DNA of 30,136 bases, taken from IMG/VR virus record IMGVR_UViG_3300017782_000123, positions 1-30,136 of that record; one strand, given 5' to 3'. Every line of letters starts with the position of its first letter. Position 1 is the first letter of the stretch. This document shows, piece by piece, positions 2,252 through 9,088 of this stretch. The DNA comes from a virus. Below the pieces are notes generated by a model. That model was not told the DNA's origin. It did not search any database and worked only from the letters and a program-made list of their open reading frames with translations. A program made the position numbers and the translations under genes.

Positions 2252-2548
2252 ATGGTGTGTTTCAACTTGAGATTGTATGATTATCTAGAACAGTATATCA
2301 TGAACAAAGACACAGAGCATGTGGATTGTTGTCCGGTTTGTTATGACAGGCATTTGAATGCCGATCACACAAGACCTGCGGTGCATGACATTGTTGATTG
2401 TTACAAAAACAAATTGTTACAAGATGTTATAGCCGAGTATCGTGTCAAATACAATCATGAACCAGACATCACCGATCACTTCATATACCAAGTGTGGAAG
2501 CATGTGAGCAAAGAGATGATAGATTATCAGAAGCTCAACAAGCGGTGA
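2252..2548 (+). CDS. Small Cys/His protein, unknown function
   Basis: A 98-aa protein with a possible zinc site: Cys26, Cys27 and Cys30 (CCPVC) followed by His34 and His39. The C-terminal half is helical (HFIYQVWKHVSKEMIDYQKL). No family recognised; a small treble-clef or zinc-ribbon-like regulator is conceivable. The start is fixed by the perfect late promoter just upstream. Its last 14 bases overlap the end of the convergent ClpC-like gene. It is not part of any multi-gene unit in this window. Confidence 0.6.
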   Translation: MVCFNLRLYDYLEQYIMNKDTEHVDCCPVCYDRHLNADHTRPAVHDIVDCYKNKLLQDVIAEYRVKYNHEPDITDHFIYQVWKHVSKEMIDYQKLNKR

Positions 2549-5003
2549 ACAGCAGCTTCTCACCATCCACTGTTATTTTGATTTTGTTGATTGGTTCAGG
2601 TGAGTCTATCAACATCTCAGCCAATGGGGTCTCGATTTGATCAACAATCACACGTCTCAATGGCCTGGCACCATATTCATGTTGTTTGTTGGATCGTGCC
2701 ACAAACTCACACACATCACCACTGTAACTTATCATGCATCCATTGTTGGTCCGTGCATTTGATCTCAACTCTCGAAGCAACAGTTTAGCGACCTCTGTCA
2801 ACTCATCATCATTCAACCGATCAAACACAATCAGATTATCCAATCGGTTGATAAATTCTGGTGCGTACATCTTTCTGAGTTCATCTATCACCGCGGTGTG
2901 AGTGTCATACTGTTGGGTGAAACCAACTGTGTTGAGCTTATCAAACTTGTGGGCTCCAACGTTGCTTGTCATCACTATTATGGTGTTTTTAAAATTGACG
3001 CTCAATCCATCACTGTCTGTGAGACATCCATATTCCAACACTTGTAGAAAAACTTGAAGAACATCCGGATGTGCTTTCTCGATCTCATCCAGAAGTAACA
3101 CACTGTATGGGTTGTGTCGTACGAATTCGGTCAGATCGCCACCCTCTCCTGAACCAACATAACCTGGTGGACTGCCGATCAACTTACTTACACTATGCTT
3201 CTCACTAAATTCACTCATGTCATATTGCTTGAAATTGCCATCTGAAAACATCTCTGTACCTAAGATGCGCGCTAGGTGTGTCTTTCCAACTCCAGTGGGT
3301 CCTAGAAATAATAATGAACATATAGGTCTATCTGGATTTGTGAGTCCGGCTCTGCTACGCTTGATCGCAGAGCATATTGTGTCTATTGCAGACCCTTGAC
3401 CTATAACTTGCTTCTTCATGTTACATGCAAGCTCCCTCAAAACCTCTGCTTCTGATCTGTTTATGTTGTTCACAGGCACACCGGTCCGGTCACTCACTAA
3501 TGATCGCACGTGCTCGATGTCAACACGCTCAGCCTTTCCAGGATTATCATACAAATCCTCACGTTCCTTTATCGCAACATTCAGTTCTTCGATGTATTGT
3601 TGTTCTGTTTCTCTGTAGCCTAATGCTGTGTCAAATTCATGTGCCTCGACTGCTCTATTCTTTCGCTTAATCACCTGTTCGATGCTGGCAAGCAAGTCTC
3701 TCACACATTTTGGCTGCAACTTACGCACTTTGATACGTGCTCCAACCTCATCTAGTATATCAATAGCCTTGTCTGGAAAGCGTTTATCAGGTTGATATCT
3801 ATTACACATATCAACAATCTCTCTCAACACGCCTAAATTGTATTTGACATTATGATATGTTTCGTATTTATGCTTGATACCTCTCAATATTTGTAATGTT
3901 TCATCTTGTGTAGGTTCATCTACAAACACATTCTGAAATCTACGATCCAATGCACCATCATTTTCAATAAACTCTTTATATTCCTGTAATGTTGTTGCAC
4001 CAATACAGCTGATTTTGCCTCGAGCTAGTGCAGGTTTAAGTATGTTACTCGCATCCATGCTCCCGGATGTGGAGCCGGCTCCTACAAGCATGTGTAATTC
4101 ATCTATAAACAAAATGATATCTGGTTGTTGTTGAGCGTAGTTTATTACTTCCTTGAGTCTCTCCTCAAATTGACCTCTATATATTGTACCGGCAACCAAT
4201 TGAGCAAGATCCAATGAGTATATTTGTTTATGGAACATGTTGACAGGTACTTGCTGTGAGACGATCCGTTGAGCAAGCAGCTCCACTACAGCTGTTTTAC
4301 CCACTCCTGGTTCACCAACCAATACAGGATTGTTTTTGGTACGGCGACTTAATATCTCTAGCATGTATTTAACATCAGATTCTCTACCGATAACAGGATC
4401 AAGCTGATCTTCATATGCTAATCTAGTCAAATTAGTAGCATACTTTTCTATCACACTTTCTGTGTGATCTGTACTAGTCATGACCTCATCACCACCTCCA
4501 GAAGGTGATGTCTTTTGTTTTGTTTTGCGCTTGCGCCTCTTGGGTAGTGATACTATTCTACTGTATATGTCTTCATATAAGACATCCACATCAATGTTTT
4601 TGAGCTTGAATAAATTGTTACCAGTACCGCTATCACTGACTAAAATACTCAATAACAGATGATCTACACTCACAAACGTTGAATCCATCTCATGTGCTAT
4701 ACTCGCAGCATATGAGACCATAGTCAATACCCGACCGCTCGGTTCAATTTCATCCATCTTAGGCTTTTTATCACCTTTATATTTTTTGAGATTTGAAATA
4801 ACAAAAGATCTGAAGCTATCGATATCAATTGAGTGTATATCTCTCATGATCTGCACACTACTGGGCAGCTTATCATACTCGAATATACTTAACAATATAT
4901 GCTCGGTCGTTATAAAATCATGCAAATAGTCACATGCGATTTGTTTTGCATGTGACATAATTTTTCTACCACTTGGTGACAATTCCGGTTGGTTGTTCAT
5001 CAT
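2535..5003 (-). CDS. clpC: ClpC-type AAA+ unfoldase (Clp ATPase)
   Basis: An 822-aa Hsp100 protein, about the normal length for ClpC. It has an N-terminal Clp repeat domain (residues about 1-145), a basic linker (PKRRKRKTKQKT), NBD1 with Walker A GEPGVGKT (about 229-236) and Walker B ILFIDE, a short middle domain with a UVR-like motif (EAHEFDTALGYRETEQQ), and NBD2 with Walker A GPTGVGKT (about 567) and Walker B VLLLDE. The arginine-rich sensor segment EFINRLDN is intact. A VGF tripeptide near residue 692 sits where ClpC/ClpA carry the loop that docks ClpP, so it probably feeds substrates to a peptidase. No clpP lies in the window; host ClpP is the obvious partner. I chose the Met at 5003 (5000 is also possible) because TATAAATA lies just upstream; the frame is open 15 codons further. 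Full-length Clp ATPases are unusual in phages. Confidence 0.93.
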   Translation of the reverse strand: MMNNQPELSPSGRKIMSHAKQIACDYLHDFITTEHILLSIFEYDKLPSSVQIMRDIHSIDIDSFRSFVISNLKKYKGDKKPKMDEIEPSGRVLTMVSYAASIAHEMDSTFVSVDHLLLSILVSDSGTGNNLFKLKNIDVDVLYEDIYSRIVSLPKRRKRKTKQKTSPSGGGDEVMTSTDHTESVIEKYATNLTRLAYEDQLDPVIGRESDVKYMLEILSRRTKNNPVLVGEPGVGKTAVVELLAQRIVSQQVPVNMFHKQIYSLDLAQLVAGTIYRGQFEERLKEVINYAQQQPDIILFIDELHMLVGAGSTSGSMDASNILKPALARGKISCIGATTLQEYKEFIENDGALDRRFQNVFVDEPTQDETLQILRGIKHKYETYHNVKYNLGVLREIVDMCNRYQPDKRFPDKAIDILDEVGARIKVRKLQPKCVRDLLASIEQVIKRKNRAVEAHEFDTALGYRETEQQYIEELNVAIKEREDLYDNPGKAERVDIEHVRSLVSDRTGVPVNNINRSEAEVLRELACNMKKQVIGQGSAIDTICSAIKRSRAGLTNPDRPICSLLFLGPTGVGKTHLARILGTEMFSDGNFKQYDMSEFSEKHSVSKLIGSPPGYVGSGEGGDLTEFVRHNPYSVLLLDEIEKAHPDVLQVFLQVLEYGCLTDSDGLSVNFKNTIIVMTSNVGAHKFDKLNTVGFTQQYDTHTAVIDELRKMYAPEFINRLDNLIVFDRLNDDELTEVAKLLLRELRSNARTNNGCMISYSGDVCEFVARSNKQHEYGARPLRRVIVDQIETPLAEMLIDSPEPINKIKITVDGEKLLFTAC

Positions 5004-5007
5004 AAAA

Positions 5008-5015
5008 TATTTATA
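5008..5015 (-). promoter_or_regulatory. Perfect T4-type late promoter for the Clp gene
   Basis: TATAAATA on the minus strand, four bases before the first and seven before the second of two adjacent ATG codons. The expected transcript start falls at about 5002, so the mRNA would have almost no leader. It makes the unfoldase a late gene, in contrast to the sigma70-type promoter driving the divergent operon. Confidence 0.7.
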
Positions 5016-5032
5016 TATGTTACACTTTATTG

Positions 5033-5061
5033 TTGATATATGCAACATTTTATCATATAAT
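5033..5061 (+). promoter_or_regulatory. Sigma70-type promoter of the deazaguanine operon
   Basis: TTGATA (5033-5038), a 17-base spacer and TATAAT (5056-5061): eleven of twelve consensus bases with ideal spacing. Six bases separate the -10 from the ATG at 5068, so the expected +1 is the A of the start codon. It should be read by unmodified host RNA polymerase, that is, early in infection. Confidence 0.75.
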
Positions 5062-5067
5062 GTTAAT

Positions 5068-5901
5068 ATGTATATAGAAGTTTCACATGAAAGTCCAATC
5101 AGTATGTTGGAACACTCATTAACGTATAATGATTACGCTTACGCGTTGGTTCATTTATTTGAAACACATCCTAGATATTATAATTTTTTTAAAAACCTCA
5201 AACAGAGTTCAGATATACCAGTATTGTTAGACAACAGTATATTTGAATTGAAAAAGGCTTTTGATCCTAAGAAATATTGTGAATGGATAAGCAAGTTGAA
5301 ACCAAATTATTATATTGTACCGGATGTTCTAGAAGACTTTGAAGGTACACGTGATGCGTGGAACGATTGGATGTTGAAGTATACTGATAACAGTCACTCA
5401 TTAGGTGACGGTGCTCTCAAAATAGGTGTTGTGCAAGGTGTGAATTGGAACGATCTTGTAGAGTGCTATAAGTTTATGGCTGAACACGCTGAATATATAG
5501 CGATAAGCTTTGATTATTCATATTATCAACACACAGGATATAGTGCAAACTCATCATATCCACACAGACTAGCCAAGATGAAATCTGGCAGAATCAGATT
5601 TATACAGCAGTTGATAGATGAAGGTATATGGTGCTGGGAAAAGCCTCACCATTTGTTGGGTTGTAGTTTAGCCAGTGAGTTCAGATGGTATGTTGATAAC
5701 AATGTACACAATATAAAGAGTTGTGACACAAGTAATCCTGTTGTTGCCTCTATTAAAGGTTTGAGATATAATGACGACATGGGATTAAATATCAAGCCAT
5801 CGACGCTGCTAGCAGATTTGATAGATCACGAAATGACTGATGATCAAATTGATGATCTTGAATACAATACTAAGATGTTTAAAAAAATAATAAGAAGATA
5901 G
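5068..5901 (+). CDS. dpdA: DpdA/TGT-like 7-deazaguanine transglycosylase
   Basis: A 277-aa protein that looks like a compact phage member of the tRNA-guanine transglycosylase superfamily, which swaps a guanine for a 7-deazaguanine. Visible landmarks are LLDNSIFE (53-60), IVPDVLED (83-90, position of the substrate-binding acid), IGVVQG (119-124, equivalent to the GIVQG substrate loop of TGT), HLLGCSLASEF (195-205) and SCDTSNP (208-214), whose Asp210 fits the catalytic nucleophile. The zinc-binding Cys cluster of tRNA TGT is not evident, as expected for DNA-acting DpdA. QueF in the same operon and a formyltransferase one base downstream support DNA modification. The frame is open back to 4993, but the promoter overlaps that part, so ATG 5068 is the start. 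A tRNA-acting TGT or another TIM-barrel enzyme remains possible. Confidence 0.72.
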   Translation: MYIEVSHESPISMLEHSLTYNDYAYALVHLFETHPRYYNFFKNLKQSSDIPVLLDNSIFELKKAFDPKKYCEWISKLKPNYYIVPDVLEDFEGTRDAWNDWMLKYTDNSHSLGDGALKIGVVQGVNWNDLVECYKFMAEHAEYIAISFDYSYYQHTGYSANSSYPHRLAKMKSGRIRFIQQLIDEGIWCWEKPHHLLGCSLASEFRWYVDNNVHNIKSCDTSNPVVASIKGLRYNDDMGLNIKPSTLLADLIDHEMTDDQIDDLEYNTKMFKKIIRR

Positions 5902-5902
5902 T

Positions 5903-6457
5903 ATGTTAATAGAAAATAAGAAATGGGTGGCCATGTTTAGCCACACAGGTAATGAGATATACAACATATCAAAAAAGATAGGCAGATTTCCGGATCGTGT
6001 TATAACAAACAAAACACCAGGTGATAAATGTATTAACAAAAATTTATTATCTAAAACAGATGTAGTTTACGTCAAGGACCGACCTGAAGTACAAGATTAT
6101 AATAGAGTGTTGTGGGATGATTGTGTATTGACGCTACATGGGTGGATGAGAGTTTTACCTAAGACTGTTTGCAAGGAATATGAGATTTATAATTTACATC
6201 CAGGTTTAATAACAAAATATTCAGAATTGAAAGGAGCTGACCCACAACGACGTGTTTTCGAGTGTGAGTATCCAGAGCGATATGAACACGTTGGTTGTGT
6301 CATACATCATGTGTCTCCAGAAGTTGATGCAGGAAAAGTTGTAATGGAAAGATCTACATCCAACACATTTACAGGGTGTGGTGTATTGACAGAATATTTA
6401 CACGAGATGGCTACAGACATGTGGGTCGACTTTATGATGATAAACACATCGGATTAA
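5903..6457 (+). CDS. dpdN: PurN-fold formyltransferase, candidate dPreQ1 formyltransferase
   Basis: A 184-aa protein with the core of the 10-formyltetrahydrofolate-dependent formyltransferases (PurN, Fmt, ArnA). The catalytic triad is visible: Asn97 and His99 in IYNLHPGL and Asp142 in VSPEVDAGKV, matching Asn106, His108 and Asp144 of E. coli PurN. VLTLHGWMRVLP (75-86) corresponds to the strand and loop before the triad. It is shorter than PurN (212 aa) and lacks the Fmt C-terminal domain. It starts one base after the dpdA-like stop, so the two are co-transcribed. A formylated preQ1 base has been reported in phage DNA, and DpdN was predicted as its dPreQ1 formyltransferase; this protein fits that role by fold and position. 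Alternatives are formylation of a sugar or nucleotide amine. Confidence 0.68.
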   Translation: MLIENKKWVAMFSHTGNEIYNISKKIGRFPDRVITNKTPGDKCINKNLLSKTDVVYVKDRPEVQDYNRVLWDDCVLTLHGWMRVLPKTVCKEYEIYNLHPGLITKYSELKGADPQRRVFECEYPERYEHVGCVIHHVSPEVDAGKVVMERSTSNTFTGCGVLTEYLHEMATDMWVDFMMINTSD

Positions 6458-6463: not shown

Positions 6464-7006
6464 ATGTTATGGAAGTTTAGAGTATTATTTAATGTTCCGA
6501 TTGAGATTGGATCAATTGTGAAATATATAGATAGTAGATCAAAGGACCGTAGAGGTGTTGGTGAGGTTTGTGGTATTATTGGGGCTGGAGAAAATACAAA
6601 ATATGAGATATACATATTGACCAAACGCTTACAACCCAGAATGACAAGCGATGATAAATATATCACACGTAAGATACATTCAAAGTACTGCAAACATATC
6701 GATATTAATAAGACGATAGTTAACAAAAAAGACTTTGAACTAGGGGATATTGTTTGTTATAAATTTTTAACAATTAAAAAGTATGGTGTTATAACTGGAT
6801 TTGTCCATCCGGATGGTCTAGATACAACTTCATATTACTGTGGATATAATGGCACTGACTTGATAGAGTGTGTGCAAATTGATAAAAACAATTTAACACG
6901 ATGTAGAGACGAGCAGAGTAACATCAAGAGATTCACCTCACATAAAAAGAGACTAAAGATATGTGAGGTAGATCTATGGAACGAGAAAGGTGCTAATATT
7001 ATATAA
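6464..7006 (+). CDS. Unrecognised protein in the deazaguanine operon
   Basis: A 180-aa basic soluble protein with no family I recognise. Two similar-looking beta-rich segments open with EIGSIVKYID (about 14-23) and ELGDIVCYKF (about 92-101), suggesting two tandem small barrel domains (SH3- or KOW-like). The C-terminal third is rich in Lys, Arg and Asn. It starts six bases after the formyltransferase stop, and the next gene's ATG follows its stop directly, so it belongs to the operon. Binding of nucleic acid or of a partner enzyme is plausible for such barrels, but nothing shows it. As a gene of unknown function placed among DNA-modification genes it is a candidate accessory factor. Confidence 0.65.
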   Translation: MLWKFRVLFNVPIEIGSIVKYIDSRSKDRRGVGEVCGIIGAGENTKYEIYILTKRLQPRMTSDDKYITRKIHSKYCKHIDINKTIVNKKDFELGDIVCYKFLTIKKYGVITGFVHPDGLDTTSYYCGYNGTDLIECVQIDKNNLTRCRDEQSNIKRFTSHKKRLKICEVDLWNEKGANII

Positions 7007-7216
7007 ATGGCTCCGTGGCGGTTGTTAAATTTTAAAGGAAAATTGTTGGTTGTGGCATGTTGTTTAAATGTATATGTTGCGGGCGTGATTGGTTTTGGTG
7101 GATCATGGTTTGCGGTATTTTCGATTTGTGTAGCAGCACTATGTGGGATGATGACATTCAATAGCAAGTATCAAATAACAACAGCAGAAGATATTAATGA
7201 AAAAAGAAAAAAATAA
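7007..7216 (+). CDS. Small two-TM membrane protein
   Basis: A 69-aa protein with two hydrophobic helices, about residues 12-30 (KLLVVACCLNVYVAGVIGF) and 33-50 (SWFAVFSICVAALCGMMT), joined by a tight Gly-Gly turn, and a charged C-terminal tail (EDINEKRKK) that would be cytoplasmic together with the basic N-terminus. It is a membrane hairpin without a recognised family. The ATG directly abuts the previous stop, and its last 20 bases overlap the MazZ-like gene, so expression is coupled. It could be a small phage membrane effector, for example in exclusion or inhibition of a host membrane enzyme, but this is speculation. Confidence 0.6.
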   Translation: MAPWRLLNFKGKLLVVACCLNVYVAGVIGFGGSWFAVFSICVAALCGMMTFNSKYQITTAEDINEKRKK

Positions 7217-7559
7217 CAGACAGTTTGATTCCGGAGCACAAAGAGATACCGGTGATGGAAAATTGCGCATGAGCTTGTTACCACAACAGGAACTGAAGCG
7301 TGTACTGAAGAGGTATCTAGATGGTGCAGAAAAGTACGGAGAAAATAACTGGATGAAGGGGATGCCTTTGAGTGTGTACTTTGATTGCGCTCATAGACAT
7401 CTTGAGGCTTGGTGGCGGTGTGAAGATTCGGAAGACCATGCTGCAGCTGTAGTATGGAATATACTGTGCGCCATGCATACAGAAACGCGAGCTTCAGAAT
7501 CGGATGCGTTTCCAAAAGAACGTCAACTGGATGATCGTATTAAATATCCAAAAGATTAG
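7197..7559 (+). CDS. MazZ-like dATP/dGTP pyrophosphohydrolase
   Basis: A 120-aa protein matching the small phage family named after the dATP/dGTP diphosphohydrolase N-terminal domain (formerly DUF5664), related to MazG and to MazZ of 2-aminoadenine phages. Signature blocks are FDSGAQRD (10-17), GKLR (21-24), EKYGENNW (45-52), HRHLEAWW (66-73) and EDHAAAVVWN (79-88), where the acidic and His residues would hold magnesium and the triphosphate. Such enzymes cut dNTPs to dNMP and pyrophosphate. No purZ or datZ is in the window, so a full Z-genome pathway is not supported. Placed between deazaguanine genes and next to a kinase-like protein, it more likely adjusts the deoxynucleotide pool. The start overlaps the membrane-protein gene by 20 bases. 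Confidence 0.75.
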   Translation: MKKEKNNRQFDSGAQRDTGDGKLRMSLLPQQELKRVLKRYLDGAEKYGENNWMKGMPLSVYFDCAHRHLEAWWRCEDSEDHAAAVVWNILCAMHTETRASESDAFPKERQLDDRIKYPKD

Positions 7560-7593: not shown

Positions 7594-8187
7594 ATGTTAA
7601 TTAGTTTCACAGGTGCACAATGTACAGGTAAGACAACACTACTAAAAGAGTGTATGTCGATGTCTCATGAAGGAGAAGATTTTTTTCAATGGAATTTTGT
7701 TAATGAAGTCACGAGGAAAGTCAAACGTAATGGGTTTTCGATTAACGAACAAGGAAACAACGCAACACAATTACACATATTAAGTGAACATTTAATCAAC
7801 CATACACAGTCTGTAGGTAACACTATGTTGGATAGGTGTATATTAGATGGTTATATATATTCATGCTATTTGGCATCTAGGGGTATAGTTGACGAGTGGG
7901 TTTGTGAATATGCAGGCAATTTGATGAACGAGTTAGTCGGGAGACTAGATCATATTTTTTACACACAACCAGAAGATATACAACTTATCGATGACGGGGA
8001 GAGGAGTCTTGATCATGATTTTAGACAAGGCATAATTGATAGGTATGAGGAGTTATTCGCTCAAAAATATTTTTGGTACAACAAGATAGTCAGATTATAT
8101 GGCGATGAGCAAGAGCGAATGCTAACAATTTTACAAACAATAAATGAACATGACAACAGCAACATTAGACAACTCCAGAATATCTAA
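7594..8187 (+). CDS. P-loop NTPase, NadR/nucleotide-kinase-like (AAA_28 type)
   Basis: A 197-aa protein with an N-terminal Walker A (GAQCTGKTT, residues 7-15) and a kinase-like acidic motif (MLDRCILDGYIYSCYL, about 78-93), in which the DR-x-x-x-D pattern is typical of the NadR/thymidylate-kinase-like AAA_28 group. The length fits small phage nucleotide or nucleoside kinases. The substrate cannot be read from sequence; dNMPs, or a modified nucleotide in this operon, are possible. It has its own sigma70-type promoter directly upstream, and its last 44 bases overlap the queF start, so the two are co-expressed. Because the preceding gene makes dNMPs from dNTPs, kinase and pyrophosphohydrolase may act as a pair. 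Confidence 0.75.
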   Translation: MLISFTGAQCTGKTTLLKECMSMSHEGEDFFQWNFVNEVTRKVKRNGFSINEQGNNATQLHILSEHLINHTQSVGNTMLDRCILDGYIYSCYLASRGIVDEWVCEYAGNLMNELVGRLDHIFYTQPEDIQLIDDGERSLDHDFRQGIIDRYEELFAQKYFWYNKIVRLYGDEQERMLTILQTINEHDNSNIRQLQNI

Positions 8188-9088
8188 ACATCTAGGACAG
8201 GTATCACAGTACAAAGATCAATACGACTCATCGTTACTTGTTAGTGAACCTAGACAGAACAATAGAACGCACCTCGATATAAGTGATGATAATTTACCAT
8301 TTATAGGGTACGATACATGGAATGCATATGAAGTAAGCGCGCTCACTAACAATGGATTGCCAGTTGCTGGTGTTGCTAAGATTGTCTATCCGTGCAATAA
8401 CAAGTATATTGTTGAGAGTAAAAGTATAAAATTATATTTCAACTCATTTAATATGTACAAGTGTGGTGATCAACCTGTAGATGTGTTGGATTTTATTGAT
8501 AAAAAGGCATCAGAGGATTTATCCAAATTACTAGGGACAGTTGTTCATGTACACACCCACCCTGCGAGCTTCAGAGCTAAGGGAGAACAAGTTTTAGATC
8601 CATTTGAATATACAACGTTAGAGGACACCTTCTCACAAGAGGAACTAGGTAAGATGCTTTTAGATACATATAGTGAAACTCCAGAGTTGCTTTGGTTAGA
8701 GGAACCTAGAGAAAATGGTGTTGTGTCTGAAGAGGTAAGATGGCATAGTAGTTTGCTCAAGAGTAATTGCCGTGTGACAAGCCAACCGGATTGGGGAGAT
8801 GTGTATATTATGTACAAGGCACAAACACATATATGTCCAGAGAGCCTGTTAGCGTACATTGTATCATTCAGAGATGAATGTCATTTTCATGAAGAAATTT
8901 GCGAGACTATATACAAACGACTATATGACACTTTGTCACCAGAAGAGCTAGTTGTTACATGTTTGTATGCAAGGCGTGGCGGTATTGACATCAACCCTGT
9001 ACGTGCTTCGAATTCTGCTTTGATCGCACGTGAGTGTCAAGATCTTGTAGATCCATTTGTGATGCATGTCAAGACAGCAAAGCAATAA
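8144..9088 (+). CDS. queF: NADPH-dependent 7-cyano-7-deazaguanine (preQ0) reductase
   Basis: A 314-aa long-type (bimodular, E. coli-like) QueF that reduces the nitrile of preQ0 to the aminomethyl of preQ1 with NADPH. The family motif ESKSIKLYFNSF stands at residues 91-102, after GYDTWNAYEVS (55-65). The catalytic Cys209 lies in LLKSNCRVTSQPDWG, with Asp216 seven residues on, the same spacing as Cys190 and Asp197 of E. coli. FHEEIC (His249, Glu250) supplies the substrate-binding pair and YARRGGIDINP closes the second module. All key residues are intact, so it should be active. The enzyme is cytoplasmic. With the dpdA-like gene in the same block it points to preQ1-type DNA modification rather than to queuosine alone. 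Start at 8144 overlaps the kinase gene; ATG 8150 is an alternative. Confidence 0.95.
   Translation: MNMTTATLDNSRISKHLGQVSQYKDQYDSSLLVSEPRQNNRTHLDISDDNLPFIGYDTWNAYEVSALTNNGLPVAGVAKIVYPCNNKYIVESKSIKLYFNSFNMYKCGDQPVDVLDFIDKKASEDLSKLLGTVVHVHTHPASFRAKGEQVLDPFEYTTLEDTFSQEELGKMLLDTYSETPELLWLEEPRENGVVSEEVRWHSSLLKSNCRVTSQPDWGDVYIMYKAQTHICPESLLAYIVSFRDECHFHEEICETIYKRLYDTLSPEELVVTCLYARRGGIDINPVRASNSALIARECQDLVDPFVMHVKTAKQ

Follow-up and report, generated by a model that had tools for sequence, protein, structure and literature searches.

A phage formyltransferase linked to DpdA and QueF is a probable preQ1 N-formyltransferase of DNA modification

We suggest that the 184-aa formyltransferase (FT) described here is a DpdN-type, folate-dependent N-formyltransferase that is dedicated to phage DNA modification and would make N-formyl-preQ1. 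We give this reading a probability of about 0.78. The gene is found in IMGVR_UViG_3300017782_000123, a metagenomic T4-like phage record of 30 kb, the whole of which is referred to as the window. Genes for a T4-like capsid protein, a scaffold and a prohead protease lie in the right part of the window, which marks the record as a fragment of such a phage. Cui et al. 2023 reportedly predicted that DpdN formylates preQ1 in phages bearing DpdA, and are said to have seen fdPreQ1 by mass spectrometry in phage DNA. Our full-text literature searches on DpdN and fdPreQ1 returned nothing relevant. As predicted for DpdN, the FT of the window is encoded by a phage together with DpdA and QueF, and it adds to this predicted kind of enzyme rather than founding a new one. 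The genes of the module are as follows.

5068..5901, plus strand: DpdA3-type DNA guanine transglycosylase, 277 aa, starting at ATG 5068 (phrog_19058, 6.6e-46; TGT fold)
5903..6457, plus strand: formyltransferase, proposed preQ1 N-formyltransferase (DpdN type), 184 aa, triad N97/H99/D142
6464..7006, plus strand: 180-aa protein between FT and kinase, without a family match, kept only in close relatives
7007..7216, plus strand: small protein of 69 aa, no family match over the cut-off
7197..7559, plus strand: dATP/dGTP diphosphohydrolase N-terminal-like protein (PF18909, 4.4e-21), kept in the close relatives of the window
7594..8187, plus strand: P-loop nucleotide kinase-like protein (AAA_28; phrog_2107, thymidylate kinase)
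8144..9088, plus strand: QueF, putative NADPH-dependent nitrile reductase from preQ0 to preQ1, 314 aa, with both halves (PF14819, 4.6e-31; PF14489, 3.9e-22)

Translation confirms the open reading frame at 5903-6457 on the plus strand, and the gene does begin one base behind the transglycosylase gene, as first described (TAG at 5899-5901, spacer at 5902, ATG at 5903), with an AAGAAG stretch directly upstream of its ATG. The protein matches Pfam Formyl_trans_N (PF00551) at 1.7e-9, with 38.1 bits against a cut-off of 26.1. The residues proposed for the active site, N97, H99 and D142, align with N106, H108 and D144 of E. coli PurN, which are the catalytic residues of GAR transformylase (PMC7926923), and they are invariant among 50 non-redundant relatives. 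The C-terminal, tRNA-binding domain of Fmt is absent, since the protein stops where the formyltransferase domain stops. The preliminary description also called the protein shorter than PurN. E. coli PurN, with 212 aa, is indeed longer, but the trait is not distinctive: PurN chains in the PDB are as short as 184 aa (4s1n) and 191 aa (5cjj), and the PurN-like protein of cyanophage P-SSM2 has 174 aa. A compact form is nothing unusual for a PurN protein.

The neighbour of the FT gene was identified as a transglycosylase by its fold. Though no Pfam family matches it, a model with a pLDDT of 94.8 has tRNA-guanine transglycosylases for all of its top 50 PDB matches, the best at Z 17.9 and rmsd 3.0 A over 235 residues, and residues D55 and D220 are invariant. 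The longer reading frame called mechanically for this gene starts at TTG 4993, and the ATG is at 5068. The protein is 42.6% identical to the annotated DpdA of Flavobacterium phage vB_FspM_immuto and about 40% identical to an uncharacterised gene product of Campylobacter phages. We presume that its subfamily is DpdA3, a name from the 2023 DpdN paper. A gene for an 837-aa ClpB/ClpA-like ATPase (2535-5048, minus strand) is divergent from the DpdA gene and is unexpected cargo beside a DNA-modification module.

The QueF of the window scores 245 bits against TIGR03138, below the cut-off of 293, and QueF is hard to separate from archaeosine-type QueF-L by similarity alone (Hutinet et al. 2019, PMC6884629). 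The ESKSxKLY motif, the active-site residue Cys190 and the pair His229 and Glu230 (E. coli numbering) are nevertheless invariant in 90 of the 90 QueFs of such modules. Their conservation argues for nitrile reductases that probably make preQ1 rather than for QueF-L.

In the pathway that we propose, preQ0 would be supplied either by the host or by genes in other parts of the phage genome, and the phage QueF would reduce it to preQ1, which bears a primary aminomethyl amine. DpdA3 would swap guanine in DNA for a 7-deazaguanine base, and the FT would use N97, H99 and D142 to formylate the preQ1 amine, with 10-formyl-THF as the donor. The expected product is 7-(formylamino)methyl-7-deazaguanine in DNA, and in this scheme formylation may come either before or after insertion by DpdA3. 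The donor, the acceptor and the formylated product are what we infer from the fold, the triad, the conserved operon, the dependence on QueF and the loss of the GAR signature, all of them read from sequences and models; folate binding is likewise deduced from conserved alignment columns. A kinase gene and further genes share the operon, and so the formyl group could instead go to a different amine of the pathway. For preQ0 supply we assume a source elsewhere in the incomplete genome or in the host. Neither FolE nor QueC was found on the 30 kb window record or on its relatives of 16 to 59 kb (including those of 49 and 59 kb), whereas both are present on all five of the tested FT-carrying contigs of 128 to 193 kb. 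The window phage may well encode both beyond the fragment.

The kinase-like gene stands beside DpdA3 in nearly every locus, even where QueF and FT are both missing (CP220, CC_R7, L161), and its product may therefore belong to DpdA3 modification in general. Profile matches of these genes (7594-8187 in the window; 8846-9388 in L092; 8799-9341 in L093) are to thymidylate kinase, NadR kinase and deoxynucleoside kinases.

The FT family is essentially viral. Scans of viral contigs for its relatives gave 227 contigs at first and at least 578 subsequently, whereas 84,980 bacterial and archaeal species genomes yielded a single match, on a phage-like contig in a Clostridiales MAG in which QueF is absent. 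The common gene order across loci is DpdA, FT, kinase, QueF, and in 61 of 76 non-redundant loci a gap of -7 to +36 bases separates DpdA from FT.

An FT that takes the product amine of QueF as its acceptor would not be expected anywhere without QueF. Among 57 non-redundant loci sampled by their FT, DpdA lies upstream in 46 of the 46 that have at least 1.5 kb of upstream flank, and QueF lies downstream in 46 of the 46 that have at least 3.5 kb of downstream flank. Of two contigs that seemed to be exceptions, L056 is uninformative, since it begins 377 bases before the FT; the other is L101, below. From the side of DpdA3, 101 non-redundant loci divide into 75 with FT and QueF, 20 with QueF but no FT, 5 with neither and 1 with FT but no QueF (L101, on a contig that begins 0.8 kb before DpdA). 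Loci fetched through DpdA alone, and so not picked for an FT, have the same pattern (FT and QueF, 22; FT alone, 0; QueF alone, 20; neither, 2). All of these are counts of contigs and not of independent events. In the DpdA tree, the QueF-bearing loci without an FT fall into about three groups nested among the FT carriers, and a search for the formyltransferase domain across the whole of 20 such contigs, including those of 184 and 209 kb, found none. At the locus in Campylobacter phages CP220 and CC_R7, DpdA and the kinase are present but QueF and FT are both absent; dADG has been reported in the DNA of Campylobacter phages (PMC6884629). Thus, the FT tracks QueF, the enzyme making the amine that it would formylate: QueF accompanies the FT in 46 of 46 loci, while 20 loci with DpdA and QueF go without an FT.

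The side of the protein that would hold the acceptor has been rewritten. In a comparison of 38 phage FT proteins with 13 PurN sequences, the PurN columns L85, G87, N106, H108, P109, G117, H137, V139, D144 and G146 are kept, most of them in all 38 phage proteins (L85 in 34, V139 in 31). Other PurN columns are replaced. N13, which is Asn in 12/13 PurN sequences, is Glu in 37/38 phage FTs; E173, which is Glu in 13/13, is lost in 38/38 to Ser, Ala or other residues; A86 becomes His in 34/38 and S110 becomes Gly or Ala in 38/38. The phage proteins also have a two-residue insertion, Leu-Lys, before a conserved Gly. We take N13, in the phosphate loop, and E173 to be residues of PurN that contact GAR; a literature search for a paper giving the GAR contacts in PurN found none. 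Since the folate and catalytic columns are kept and the GAR-side columns are replaced, the FT fits an enzyme that joins the conserved donor half of PurN to a putative new acceptor.

The reading closest to our own differs only in the stage at which the FT acts. We divide the weight almost evenly, with about half on preQ1 already in DNA, a little less on the free base and roughly one part in twenty on a nucleotide, which is a slight lean to action at the DNA level. It is a tentative proposal, somewhat short of an even chance, that the FT family acts on preQ1 in DNA as the usual last step in preQ1-making DpdA3 phages and that this chemistry is widespread, across hundreds of contigs. The rival, to which we give the same standing, is that the FT formylates free preQ1 before insertion and DpdA3 then uses N-formyl-preQ1. 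The FT is small and has no DNA-binding extension, and bacterial QueF works on the free base. The Glu in place of the PurN phosphate-loop Asn would also be consistent with an acceptor without a phosphate at that position. Against formylation of the free base, the nesting of FT-less lineages within FT-carrying ones on the DpdA tree has to be considered, and few DpdA columns split the two sets of loci, which is the pattern expected of a DpdA that accepts preQ1 in either set. In addition, the DpdA of locus L035 (96-1453) is 85% identical to that of the window, while the FT of the same locus is only 43% identical and groups with the FT of L016, which suggests that FT genes may be exchanged between related phages. 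The nested lineages and this mosaic locus hint at a DpdA that works independently of the FT, hence the slight lean to action after insertion. A scarcity of basic residues in the FT means little, since DpdA3 is acidic (median pI 5.5) and yet acts on DNA.

Two possible indicators were set aside. Charge was rejected as a sign for or against DNA binding by the FT because DpdA3 is even more acidic, and four DpdA columns that separate FT-carrying from FT-less loci are uninterpretable, given that loci without an FT lie close together on the tree.

It is improbable that the protein is a phage-borne PurN, that is, a GAR transformylase boosting purine synthesis in the infected cell in the manner of the PurN-like genes of cyanophages. 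The FT and PurN do have the fold, the catalytic triad and the folate-side residues in common. An AlphaFold2 model of the FT, built from 50 aligned sequences with a mean pLDDT of 93.4, has PurN as its closest solved structures (Z 20.1, rmsd 2.1 A, 170 residues), the cyanophage PurN-like proteins are just as short, and GenBank names the immuto homologue, YP_010114479, phosphoribosylglycinamide formyltransferase (PurN). The score against the PurN equivalog model TIGR00639, however, is 36.4 bits, far below the cut-off of 150.1, and the acceptor residues that are invariant in PurN, including E173, are gone from every one of the phage proteins compared. The cyanophage proteins, in contrast, keep the SGNG motif and the PurN Glu and fall across the split from the phage FTs. 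Nor would a role in purine synthesis give any reason for the strict linkage to DpdA and QueF.

An Fmt-like or sugar-nucleotide formyltransferase serving translation or a glycan is the least probable identity, since the fold is shared (after PurN, the model matches Fmt at Z 18.3, PurU, ArnA at Z 17.3 and sugar enzymes at Z about 16) but the phage FTs form a separate clade with support of 100/99 in a tree with few sugar enzymes, the C-terminal domain is missing and the neighbours are DNA-modification genes rather than sugar genes. A viral structure library gave only two significant matches, both giant-virus formyltransferases.

The trees took in PurN, PurU, Fmt, ArnA and other formyltransferases, and the phage FTs are one clade outside all of them, with an SH-aLRT of 99 in a quick tree and support of 100/99 in a more careful one, whose bootstrap had not converged completely. 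Grouping with glycan or sugar-nucleotide enzymes, which the preliminary description had named as the outcome that would count against it, was looked for in these trees and not seen. Profile and fold similarity suggest that the clade is sister to PurN, the tree itself being unrooted.

The immuto homologue, from an isolated phage, is 40% identical to the window FT over 95% of its length and lies inside the same clade, and the order DpdA, FT, kinase, QueF is common to the two phages. Unlike in the window, a 50-aa reading frame separates DpdA from FT in immuto, and QueD, QueE and FolE are nearby, none of which the window shows. The window FT is therefore a distant member of one lineage with immuto, and the gene pair is not of independent origin; an independent phage lineage with the pair was what the preliminary description had said would be useful evidence. 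What stands of the DpdN-type reading is carried by the operon, the dependence on QueF and the rewritten acceptor side; compactness and independent origin drop out of it.

The predicted formylation of preQ1 in phage DNA thereby gains strong comparative support, well beyond a single gene pair: the family is large and confined to phages, it is strictly linked to DpdA and QueF, and its acceptor side is rewritten. The PurN annotation of the immuto protein is corrected. If the FT does act on preQ1 in DNA, it would be a formyltransferase that depends on folate and has a base within DNA as its substrate. The DpdA3 phages offer natural contrasts, in which QueF with FT, QueF only and neither predict fdPreQ1, dPreQ1 and neither base in DNA, respectively. 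With these contrasts, mass spectrometry of isolates that are already available could test the prediction.

Several loci depart from the usual layout. In L165 (8959-14093), DpdA and FT are some 6.3 kb apart, a spacing also found in L145 and L150; by eye, the minus-strand genes in this stretch of L165 resemble those for a CHASE2 adenylate cyclase, a FecR-like protein, a curlin-like repeat protein and a CsgG-like lipoprotein. In Rhizobium phage RHph_I1_18 (L094, 6004-7272), a 422-aa protein annotated as DUF3310-domain has a weak DpdA-like match, and a QueD-like gene, a FolE gene and a peptide deformylase are also present. L095 (CAKLQF020000007, labelled Acinetobacter phage MD-2021a) has the bacterial chromosome genes hda, purM, purN and sppA at this place and has the look of host sequence or of a contig with a wrong label. 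In immuto-like phages, a phosphoribosyltransferase gene (L002, 5890-6285, and relatives) recurs near the module, and its product might salvage the guanine released by DpdA. In L129 (2331-3239), the FT continues into a fused additional C-terminal domain of some 120 aa, which has no Pfam family and matches phrog_1485, of unknown function.
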